DNA of 64,000 nt, taken from the NCBI GenBank assembly GCA_020723485.1, contig DYIU01000002.1:529543-593542 (forward strand), in the 5' to 3' direction. This document shows, piece after piece, positions 278 through 38,502 of the stretch. The notes beneath the pieces were generated by a model. It saw only the letters and a program-made list of their open reading frames with translations. It made no database searches and had not been told where the DNA came from. The translations under genes were made by a program, and so were the position numbers. The stretch is from Acidimicrobium ferrooxidans (GTDB lineage: Bacteria > Actinomycetota > Geothermincolia > Fen-727 > Anoxymicrobiaceae). How positions within the stretch are numbered: the first letter of the stretch is position 1; each line of letters begins with the position of its first letter.

Positions 278-527
278 AAGCAACACGTGATGATTGACTG
301 GCGTGGTGCGCTTGGAGGGATTCGAACCGCCCTCCGTCGCTTCGCTCTCCATAGGGGGGGCAGGCCCCCCTCTGGCGCTCGCTCACGCTCGCTGTCACCC
401 CCCCCGAGTCAGATTTCCGGGGGGATGCTCCCCCCGGAAAGAAATCGACCCCCCTGTCGGGGATTCGAATCCCTCCAAGCAACACGTGATGATTGACTGG
501 CGTGGTGCGCTTGGAGGGATTCGAACC
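278..527 (-). mobile_element. tRNA-3'-end-nested palindromic element A (at tRNA-Arg): 51-bp direct repeats 278-328 / 477-527 flanking a GC-rich hairpin core with an inverted T-arm copy (461-480)
   Basis: Direct comparison: identical AAGCAACACGTGATGATTGACTGGCGTGGTGCGCTTGGAGGGATTCGAACC at offset 199; inverted GGATTCGAATCCCTCCAAGC at 461-480; 12-bp hairpin TTTCCGGGGGGA-TGC-TCCCCCCGGAAA at 414-440. Confidence 0.85.
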
Positions 528-578
528 CCCGACACGTGGCTCCGGAGGCCACTGCTCTGTCCCCTGAGCTACAAGCGC
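503..578 (-). tRNA. tRNA-Arg (anticodon CCG), CCA encoded
   Basis: GCGCTTG-TA-GCTCAGGGGACAGAGC-A-GTGGC-CTCCGGA-GCCAC-GTGTC-GGGGG-TTCGAAT-CCCTC-CAAGCGC-A-CCA; cloverleaf folds, anticodon loop CTCCGGA. Confidence 0.95.
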
Positions 579-594
579 ACGGTGAAAGTGAAGG

Positions 595-1104
595 TCAGTC
601 GGCATGCTGCCGGCAGTACTCCAGGTAGCGTTCCCACTCAGGCCTGAGGGGTCCCAGCTCCAGGCTCACCGTTGCCGGCCCCCTGGGAACACCCGGCTTC
701 CGGAAGGGCTTCAGGCCGGCCTCGACAGGAAGCTTGTCGCGTTTCCTGCCGTTGCACTTCCTGCAGGCTGCGACTACGTTCTCCCAGGCGTGCCCGCCGC
801 CCCTGCTCCGCGGCACCACGTGGTCGACGGTCTCAGCCGGGCCCCCGCAGTACTGGCAGGTCCAGCTGTCGCGCGCGAACACCGCCCTGCGTGAGAGGTT
901 CGCCCGGCCGTAGTAAGGCACTTTAACGAAGTACGAGAGCCTTATCACCGACGGTATCGGTATTGTGAGCCTCTCGGAGTGGAAGGCGTACCCGTCGGAC
1001 TCTAGCACCTCTGCCTTTCCCTTGAGGAGGAGCACCACGGCGCGCCGCGCGCTCACCGCGCACAGCGGCTCGAAAGTAGCGTTCAGAAGCAGGACCCTGT
1101 TCAT
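595..1104 (-). CDS. HNH endonuclease
   Basis: ORF with CQYCGG...VDHVVPRSRGG...ENVVAACRKCNGRK HNH/zinc motif. Confidence 0.9.
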   Translation of the reverse strand: MNRVLLLNATFEPLCAVSARRAVVLLLKGKAEVLESDGYAFHSERLTIPIPSVIRLSYFVKVPYYGRANLSRRAVFARDSWTCQYCGGPAETVDHVVPRSRGGGHAWENVVAACRKCNGRKRDKLPVEAGLKPFRKPGVPRGPATVSLELGPLRPEWERYLEYCRQHAD

Positions 1105-1267: not shown

Positions 1268-2653
1268 TTACAGTTTGAACTCGGTCTTTTTGCCCCAGAT
1301 GCCGAGCGATACGCCGAGCTCCTCGTGCTCCTGGCCGGCCTCCTCGAGGGGGACGCCTTTCATGGCCGCGTCTATCGCCTGCCGGAAGGCCTTCGCGCCG
1401 GCAACCGGGCCGTACGGGTGGGCGTGTATGCCCCCGCCCGAGCCTATCATCACCTCGTTGCCGAGTTCGCGGACGATGTCGGGCACGTTCGTTGGCGTTA
1501 TGCCCCCCGAGGGCATGGGCATGGTGGGCTTGAGGTCGCCGAACGGGTAGGTCAGGCACATCGTGGTCTGGCGGAACCGCTCCGGCAGGTACGGCGCCTT
1601 GCCGCCGAGCGCGAACGGGACGACCAGGAAGTCCGCGCCGCAGAGCCTCGGTATCTTGCCCAGCATTATCCACGAAGAGACACCGTGTTCCGGCGACATG
1701 TAGAAGGCTCCGGCGCAGTCCATGTGCGCGAGGACGGGCAGGTTGACCTGGTTGTCCTCGGCGATGGACCTCATGGCTTCGGGACCGACGGCCAGGTAGT
1801 TGACCATCAGGGCGTTTCCGCCGGCGTCCTTCACCGCACGAGCCAGGTCGAGCATCTTGGGCAGGCGGTCGGTGATGTTGACCGTGTAGAGGGTGTGCTC
1901 GCCGGTCTCCTCGAAGACGCGCTTTTCCATCTTCATGTAGGCTTTGACCCTCTTGATGACGCCGTTATACGCCATGTCCGCGATGAGCTCGTCGTCCTTG
2001 ACCACGTCACACCCTCCGAGGGCGGCCTTGTAGAAGAGGTCCGTTCCGACATCGAGAGGATATCCGCTGCAGGGTTTTATCATGTTGTTGAGAAGGGGGC
2101 GCCTCTTGTTCTTCGGGATGCCGAGAGACTTATAAACCCCGTCGATACCGAACCTGGGCCCCTGGAACCCGTCGAGCAGTACCCTGGGCATCCGCAGGTC
2201 GAGGAGCTTTATCTTCCCGCCCATGCTGATGTTGCCGAGGCACGCCGTCAGGAGCATCGGGATCTGTGACTCGATGTTGGCGGCCGGGAAGGCCACCTGG
2301 GCGATGTACTGGCGGTCCGTAACGTCCGCCGGGACTATCCACTCGTACTCCGGGGCCTCGTAGATGGCGATGACCTTCGCCACGTGCTGCGCCCGGATCT
2401 CGGGGGTCTCCATCGGCGTCGGCGTCCAGGTGCCGGTCGACTGCTCGATCGCGAGCACCGGCGCGAGCGCGACGACGTCCAGCTCTTTCGGGAACGAGAT
2501 GTAGTAGGTTGCTATGACGTGGTTCTCGAAGTCTATCCCCTCCGGCAGGGCGCGCGGCTCGGCGTCGTACGGCCCGAGCTCGCAGACGTCCGCCGCGGCG
2601 GCCTTCTTCGGCGCCGCTTTCTTCGACGCTGCTTTCTTCTTTGCTGCTGGCAT
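1268..2653 (-). CDS. RuBisCO-like protein (RLP, form IV-type) with Lys/Ala-rich N-terminal extension
   Basis: RuBisCO large-chain features GGCDVVKDDE (K201/D203/E204 equivalents), MIKPCSG, PSGGI, GSGGGIHAHPYGPVAGAKAFRQA; several substrate-binding residues substituted. Start supported by AAGGAGG Shine-Dalgarno upstream of ATG. Confidence 0.85.
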   Translation of the reverse strand: MPAAKKKAASKKAAPKKAAAADVCELGPYDAEPRALPEGIDFENHVIATYYISFPKELDVVALAPVLAIEQSTGTWTPTPMETPEIRAQHVAKVIAIYEAPEYEWIVPADVTDRQYIAQVAFPAANIESQIPMLLTACLGNISMGGKIKLLDLRMPRVLLDGFQGPRFGIDGVYKSLGIPKNKRRPLLNNMIKPCSGYPLDVGTDLFYKAALGGCDVVKDDELIADMAYNGVIKRVKAYMKMEKRVFEETGEHTLYTVNITDRLPKMLDLARAVKDAGGNALMVNYLAVGPEAMRSIAEDNQVNLPVLAHMDCAGAFYMSPEHGVSSWIMLGKIPRLCGADFLVVPFALGGKAPYLPERFRQTTMCLTYPFGDLKPTMPMPSGGITPTNVPDIVRELGNEVMIGSGGGIHAHPYGPVAGAKAFRQAIDAAMKGVPLEEAGQEHEELGVSLGIWGKKTEFKL

Positions 2654-37996: not shown

Positions 37997-38071
37997 GGGC
38001 GTTTAGCTCAGCGGGAGAGCGCTGCCTTCACACGGCAGAGGTCACTGGTTCAATCCCAGTAACGCCCACCA
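37997..38071 (+). tRNA. tRNA-Val (anticodon CAC), CCA encoded
   Basis: GGGCGTT-TA-GCTCAGCGGGAGAGC-G-CTGCC-TTCACAC-GGCAG-AGGTC-ACTGG-TTCAATC-CCAGT-AACGCCC-A-CCA. Confidence 0.95.
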
Positions 38072-38301
38072 CGCATACTTAACCTCCACTCATCGCGTTA
38101 CTGGGATTGAACCAGTGACAGGGGGGTTATGCCTTTTTCCGGGGGGAAGGTCCCCCCGGAAATCGTCCATGGGGGGTCACAGCGAGCCCGCCCTGCGGGC
38201 GAGCGCCATAGGGGGGCTTGCCCCCCTGTGGGGAGCGGAGCGACGCAGCGAAGCGAGGAGAGCAGCGACGTCACTGCGTTCAATCCCAGTAACGCCCACC
38301 A
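38072..38301 (+). mobile_element. tRNA-3'-end-nested palindromic element B1 (at tRNA-Val): inverted T-arm/acceptor copy, hairpin core, direct 3'-end copy
   Basis: Inverted copy GCGTTACTGGGATTGAACCAGTGAC 38095-38119 (25 nt perfect complement of tRNA 38041-38065); hairpin TTTCCGGGGGGA-AGG-TCCCCCCGGAAA 38136-38162; direct copy 38270-38301 GTCACTGCGTTCAATCCCAGTAACGCCCACCA. Confidence 0.85.
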
Positions 38302-38502
38302 CTCCAATTCAGCGATTAGGCCACGCGTCTGGGTGCAGAACCAGTGATGGGGTCACCGCGCGCCGCACTGCACGATCACCATGCGGGCTGCGAATTCCAT
38401 CTGACATTGCAGTGGCGACCTGATATTGATCTGAATAAGATCTAAATCAATTCCTGGAGCCTCGCGGCGTGTGGGGTGGTTCAATCCCAGTAACGCCCAC
38501 CA
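38302..38502 (+). mobile_element. Degenerate tandem element B2 with third tRNA-Val 3'-end copy
   Basis: 23 nt after the second CCA: degenerate inverted copy GCGTCTGGGTGCAGAACCAGTGAT (38325 on); third copy GGTTCAATCCCAGTAACGCCCACCA at 38478-38502. Confidence 0.65.

Follow-up and report, generated by a model that had tools for sequence, protein, structure and literature searches.

Short structured units behind tRNA genes with an inverted end resembling the T-arm of the resident tRNA

The window, the whole stretch of 64,000 nucleotides of Acidimicrobium ferrooxidans DNA that we analysed, carries near its start a tRNA-Arg(CCG) gene on the minus strand. A palindromic element had been reported 3' of this gene by the sequence-only reading, and we find the tRNA at 503-578 (minus strand) with such an element directly behind it. 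In the direction of the tRNA, the locus is laid out as follows (T', inverted copy of the tRNA 3' part; distal T, displaced direct copy).

503..578 (-): host tRNA-Arg(CCG), intact, CCA encoded
481..502 (-): proximal trailer, 22 nt, taken to be the element's left end
455..480 (-): T', a 26-nt inverted copy (one mismatch) of the acceptor 3' strand, T-arm and variable loop
329..454 (-): type-1 core (covariance model R1), GC-rich, structured, non-coding
414..440 (-): core hairpin 1 (TTTCCGGGGGG/CCCCCCGGAAA), 12 bp, supported by covariation
353..371 (-): core hairpin 3 (G6/C6)
335..340 (-): right-end motif GCGACG, conserved, immediately ahead of distal T
304..328 (-): distal T, displaced direct tRNA copy from GGTTCG to CCA
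278..303 (-): second copy of the 22-nt trailer and the first T' bases, taken as the beginning of a second tandem unit that is truncated

Several details of the earlier description were exact: the 22-nt spacer after CCA, the 12-bp and G6/C6 hairpins, and the copy of the tRNA 3' end at 328-304 within direct repeats 199 bp apart. These repeats (278-328 and 477-527) are identical over 51 bp, and identity ends exactly at both borders. The inverted T-arm copy with its single mismatch was also correctly recognized, but it extends over 26 nt rather than the 22 nt (480-459) first assigned. Its best 21-mer matches at 20 of 21 positions, compared with 13.1 on average and 17 at most in 300 Markov-1 shuffles of the region. 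When modelled as single-stranded DNA, the element is predicted to form a single structure closed by the T'/T stem (z = -5.8). The trailer end and the first T' bases have GCTT in common. The trailer had been described as part of the direct repeat, which is true of the Arg copy, but identical trailers on both sides are atypical of the other copies. Because the far-side trailer differs in most copies, that of the Arg copy is most simply explained as the beginning of a second, truncated unit in tandem, like those found behind tRNA-Asn and in genomes G010 and G011. For the same reason we rejected a simple target duplication that includes the trailer.

Upstream of the tRNA lies a conserved HNH endonuclease gene (595-1104, minus strand), beside a gene judged by eye to be large-subunit RuBisCO-like (1268-2653, minus strand). 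The HNH gene was considered as a partner of the unit and rejected, because its synteny is kept also where the unit is missing. At 1230-1262 there is a REP-like sequence, AACGAAAGTGGTCTGACCCC, of the same kind as the flanks of the RAYT gene at G000:C7:67471. A different REP-like palindrome (CTTACCCCTGGGGACAGACACCGTAAGG...) directly follows the CCA of the orthologous tRNA-Arg(CCG) in G005 (locus L009).

A second locus, tRNA-Val(CAC), is host to two units in tandem.

37997..38071 (+): tRNA-Val(CAC), host of two tandem units
38072..38094 (+): unit 1, proximal trailer, 23 nt
38095..38119 (+): unit 1, T', complementary to the resident tRNA-Val at 25/25 positions
38120..38269 (+): unit 1, type-1 core, the best model match of the genome (112 bits)
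38270..38301 (+): unit 1, distal T with one extra C (CTGCGTTC versus CTGGTTC in the host)
38302-38502: unit 2, whole second tandem unit
38329..38348 (+): unit 2, T', imperfect
38349..38477 (+): unit 2, type-2 core (GGGGTCACCGCGC...GTGTGGGGT)
38478..38502 (+): unit 2, distal T

The type-2 core (GGGGTCACCRCGC...GCGTGGGGT) has no sequence relation to type 1, but its architecture is the same. It occurs also behind tRNA-Ala(GGC) and around a RAYT gene. Within 488 kb of the genome's own sequence, the type-2 left-end motif was found in Val unit 2 and four times around the RAYT gene at tRNA-Ala(GGC), on both sides of it, and nowhere else.

In the genome to which the window belongs (3.36 Mb, 95% complete), we examined the loci of 48 recovered tRNA and tmRNA genes, and ~15 of these carry a unit or a relative of one. 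The hosts of units are tRNA-Ala(CGC), Ala(GGC), Arg(CCG), Asn(GTT), Gln(TTG), Ile(GAT), Leu(GAG), Lys(CTT), Pro(GGG), Ser(CGA), Thr(TGT) and Val(CAC) as well as tmRNA; at tRNA-Ser(GCT) there is a minimal unit with an inverted match of just 6 nt (CGAACC). A covariance model of the type-1 core recovered 12 copies, 11 of them directly 3' of a tRNA or tmRNA gene, and the twelfth 2.4 kb from tRNA-Pro, behind a partial tRNA-Pro copy. The expectation that other tRNA genes of the genome would carry the unit was thus borne out. It extended to relatives, and there too the unit was recovered: the model has matches in 9 of 32 genomes of the class and in 23 of 399 sampled Actinomycetota genomes, and both filled and empty tRNA loci are present among relatives. 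Almost all inspected copies lie 3' of a tRNA; in one genome (G019), some are found within REP-like palindromes as well. In distant genomes, the units at the loci that we inspected follow Arg, Pro, Val, Ser, Met, Ala, Gly, Glu, Gln and Lys tRNAs. Since many unrelated assemblies contain the unit independently, it cannot be an assembly artefact. Matches of a pattern scan to contigs of Rhodocyclaceae, Rhizobium, Streptomyces and similar genomes were dismissed as chance, with no tRNA alongside. A search of the open-access literature returned no relevant earlier account of such a tRNA-linked element. The units are a real family, previously unnamed as far as the tools and the open-access literature show.

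The shared type-1 core consists of three hairpins with strong covariation (44 double-change cells compared with 12.1 in shuffled and at most 12 in slid controls). In a search against Rfam 15, the tRNA alone reached its gathering score and all other matches were far below theirs. Weak matches to microRNA families reflect the T/T' hairpin, and a weak match to the HDV ribozyme on the plus strand scored 26 bits, the gathering score being 50.

We compared the loci between genomes. The tRNA-Arg(CCG) locus is syntenic in many relatives on the HNH/RuBisCO side, and in these relatives other sequence directly follows the tRNA. In G001, tRNA-Arg(CCG) is filled, and the unit precedes a gene that comes straight after the tRNA in several relatives with an empty locus. 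Core identity is 0.861 between different isotypes of the same genome, 0.797 between the same isotype of different genomes and 0.802 when both differ, so that same-isotype cores from different genomes are no more alike than random between-genome pairs. Core identity follows the genome and not the tRNA, and within a genome the cores have therefore spread from one tRNA to another. Units often stand in tandem arrays, and the last unit is frequently truncated. In two arrays of G011 (L028 and L035) the distal T derives from another tRNA, with a Tyr 3' end in a tRNA-Ser array and a Ser 3' end in a tRNA-Ala array, indicating exchange between loci. Together, these comparisons show the same core behind many tRNAs of one genome, with orthologous loci empty and the upstream tRNA intact.

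T' was compared with ~134 tRNA 3' ends in 41 copies. The resident tRNA ranked first in 18 of the 41 (strictly so in 13) and was otherwise usually near the top. In the G011 lineage, T' has adapted by no more than 1-3 bases, and other tRNAs often match it as well as or better than the resident one. The tRNA position at which T' begins, near either 43-46 or 52, is also roughly where distal T begins. The T' copies of the own genome are 17-26 nt long, mostly with 0-2 mismatches, and usually end opposite tRNA position 6-7 from the 3' end, a common stop point that copying at insertion would predict too. By our reading of the alignments, one extra pyrimidine stands just 5' of GGTTC, or separates its two Gs, in about one third of distal T copies, and roughly one third show an insertion or substitution immediately after TTCGA. 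The T'/T stem therefore often carries one unpaired base, located at one of these two sites in most distal T copies and missing from some.

In G168, an identical T'-core unit stands behind tRNA-Pro and two tRNA-Arg genes with the same T' mismatch to all hosts, and hence T' moved together with the core. At these three loci the proximal and distal acceptor copies are both host-specific. Across eight genomes, T' fits better where the cores are more diverged (Spearman -0.76, p 0.03; clade confounding possible). Although n is as small as 8, this trend is the opposite of what decay after copying at insertion would predict. The between-copy comparisons caught no intermediate of T' correction within one lineage.

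The trailers bear on where the element begins. Those behind tRNA-Lys, Ala(GGC), Asn and Ile of the own genome share a ACCACCCTATC-like motif, and in G011 one trailer, TTTCCTTTTTC, is common to five different tRNAs. The unit at tRNA-Gly(gcc) of G278 has the same long trailer as the units at Gly(tcc), from which it follows that this trailer arrived as part of the element. On its far side, the unit is flanked by CCATTTTTTAGAAAG, which is similar to the trailer in G208 (CCATTTTTAAAAGTT). In the congener G099, a gap of 28 nt leads to tRNA-Cys and there is no unit. The few clean boundary comparisons are most simply accommodated by a layout in which tRNA...CCA would be followed by the element (trailer-T'-core) and then by TTC...CCA with the native trailer.

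Our overall reading, with a probability of roughly 0.6, is that the units are short, non-coding, structured and non-autonomous mobile elements that sit directly behind tRNA and tmRNA genes, enter after CCA and have their T' corrected. The element, comprising trailer, T' and core, would enter just after the CCA of the tRNA, and the segment of ~25 nt from GG|TTC to CCA would be duplicated on entry; in this way the tRNA gene would never be broken. T' would arrive with the element and afterwards be corrected toward the resident tRNA. The correction would probably be of the quasipalindrome kind, by a template switch from one arm of the imperfect palindrome to the other. Since the tRNA is fixed by selection, only T' would change. 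The T'/distal-T stem would presumably offer a folded single-strand end to an enzyme acting in trans. In E. coli, imperfect inverted repeats become more perfect through quasipalindrome template switching (PMC7202029), which is also reported for highly transcribed yeast DNA (PMC3820800). We consider such switching the best explanation of the host match, though not a proven one.

Among the enzyme classes searched, none is linked to all carriers. RVT_1 reverse transcriptases are missing from 8 of 9 same-class carriers, the own genome included, and Transposase_20 (IS110, DEDD) is likewise missing from 8 of 9; accordingly, a reverse transcriptase route and an IS110 bridge-RNA route were both rejected as general mechanisms. 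Non-Xer tyrosine recombinases are missing from carriers G003, G004 and G011, each of which has two Xer-type enzymes (XerC/XerD) only, and the own genome has two phage-type integrases besides XerC/XerD. No integron integrase was found in the carriers examined, the representatives tested scoring far below the cut-off. Note that the carriers are metagenome-assembled genomes (MAGs), and these absences are therefore not final. Directly behind the unit at tRNA-Gly of G278 (L299, 5290-6000) there is a gene for a LAGLIDADG_3 homing endonuclease, interrupted by an in-frame stop. Such an endonuclease was rejected as a general driver, a six-frame motif scan of 1.46 Mb of loci having revealed no second case.

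For the enzyme, RAYT is the best positive lead. The own genome has three RAYT-like Y1 transposase genes, two of which stand just behind tRNA-Ser(GCT) and tRNA-Ala(GGC), both with T repeats (L141, G000:C3:242875-243060, and L140, G000:C5:225451-225711). The tRNA-Ala(GGC) locus of G001 likewise includes a related RAYT, placed after a type-1 unit. In G019 (MAG nzgw108), type-1 cores are centred in REP-like palindromes (AAAAGG...CCCTTTT) outside tRNA loci, often in tandem, and each copy has a small T/T'-like hairpin at its left end (L142, L143, L149-L153, L159), which suggests a preference for DNA hairpins. With the type-2 left-end motif bracketing the RAYT gene at tRNA-Ala(GGC), these observations speak for an alternative in which Y1 (HUH) RAYT-type transposases move the units in trans as single-stranded DNA, the T-arm hairpin replacing the REP hairpin and the unit being a REPIN-like passenger. 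Like REPINs and REPs, the units are short, GC-rich, hairpin-forming and non-autonomous, with inverted-repeat ends, and RAYT genes adjoin some tRNA arrays. However, the termini of type-1 units are the T-arm of the resident tRNA and not the RAYT's own REP sequence, the units sit 3' of tRNA and tmRNA genes, and the core is a different, multi-hairpin unit. Moreover, Y1_Tnp matches are present in the own genome, G001, G004, G006, G010 and G019 but not in the incomplete MAGs of carriers G003, G009 and G011, only 1 of the 13 Y1 genes of G001 adjoins a tRNA, and IS200/IS605-type transposition is not known to duplicate target sequence. We regard this alternative as unlikely. Another alternative is site-specific recombination: T', core and distal T could form an attC-like single-stranded site that a tyrosine recombinase joins to T-arms at GG|TTC. 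The imperfect palindromic ends with GAAC/GTTC, the tandem arrays, the presumed recombination of a folded single strand and the G019 copies at palindrome centres with junctions at GG would fit, and the one unpaired base in the T'/T stem is reminiscent of the extrahelical bases of attC sites (PMC3053210). In contrast to integron cassettes, the unit is gene-less and its target is the tRNA T-arm. The attC R box (RYYYAAC/GTTRRRY) does not fit beyond AAC/GTT, as the unit ends are GAAC/GTTC with TTCRA between them. Furthermore, a crossover at GG|TTC would pass the donor acceptor strand to the recipient, whereas both acceptor copies in G168 are host-specific. Given also that only XerC/XerD-type recombinases were found in G003, G004 and G011, we consider the cassette explanation distinctly unlikely.

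Could T' instead arise in one step, with the target copied at insertion by snap-back synthesis or by target-primed, retrotransposon-like synthesis? The shared start position of T' and distal T, the length and few mismatches of T' in the own genome and the GCTT shared by trailer end and T' at the Arg locus would be expected from this. The distribution of RVT_1 and the T' that moved with its core in G168 argue against it, and we find it quite improbable. A host-beneficial, cis-acting RNA that controls maturation of the preceding tRNA and spread by selection, rather than selfishly, would account for the conserved covarying hairpins and for the ability of T' to pair with the tRNA's own T-arm, as T and T' are predicted to do in the minimum-free-energy fold of the precursor. 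It is hard to reconcile with the scattered presence among relatives and isotypes, the truncated tandem copies and the G019 copies outside tRNA loci, and is very improbable. Ordinary attachment-site scars of phages or ICEs have hardly any claim on the data. The direct tRNA 3'-end copies do flank the element like attL/attR, and as with tRNA-integrating islands, phages and ICEs the tRNA 3' end is intact, a displaced direct copy lies on the far side and both borders are repeated; the tRNA-Pro array even contains a cargo region and a partial tRNA copy. However, the unit is ~200 bp long and has no integrase-type open reading frame within it, nearly all units lack integrase and cargo, and one conserved structured core has adapted to a dozen tRNA types with an inverted, host-matched T-arm copy. 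Searches of IMG/VR, phage and plasmid collections returned no copies of the unit. The original judgement that simple phage/ICE att duplication is insufficient therefore stands.

Two further systems invite comparison. Casposons insert at tRNA gene 3' ends with target duplication, as the units would, but their duplications are ~14-15 bp, and casposons are large and encode Cas1. MITEs are small, non-coding, non-autonomous and dispersed with terminal inverted repeats, again like the units; in contrast, the inverted repeats of the units are host-specific and follow the target gene rather than the element. The units are best classed as a variant of non-autonomous mobile elements at tRNA genes, the unusual property being the host-matched inverted end. 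More tentatively, they may represent a new category of mobile DNA: its terminal inverted repeats would be taken from, and kept in step with, the adjoining essential gene, so that any tRNA gene could be colonised unbroken and the element carried between hosts with the tRNA, through a so far undescribed enzyme acting on folded T-arm DNA.

Bacterial mobile DNA docks at tRNA genes more than at any other site. The elements known to target them each bring a fixed att sequence and, as a rule, are confined to one tRNA. In this case, up to one third of the tRNA genes of one genome, across a dozen isotypes, are occupied by a gene-less element of ~200 bp whose ends match each resident gene, raising the question of how a mobile element re-tools its ends when it reaches another target. 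Should quasipalindrome template switching be what corrects T', the loci would document this mutational process as it occurs naturally at essential and highly transcribed genes; should an enzyme re-tool T' instead, its activity on tRNA-gene hairpins would be new. tRNA-based island finders are misled by the units as well, since leftover tRNA 3' fragments resemble att sites.

Two loci have additional features. At tRNA-Pro(GGG) of the own genome (L137, G000:C5:120048-122800), two units enclose ~2.3 kb of cargo, judged by eye to contain nucleotidyltransferase and HEPN-like toxin-antitoxin candidates and a lipoprotein. The locus also holds the partial tRNA-Pro copy, which begins at the anticodon arm, and is an island carrying the unit along with its att region. 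At tRNA-Glu of MAG nzgw113 (L194), the trailer before T' contains an apparently complete intrinsic terminator, placing T' ~67 nt from the tRNA, and the terminator-bearing trailer recurs after distal T.
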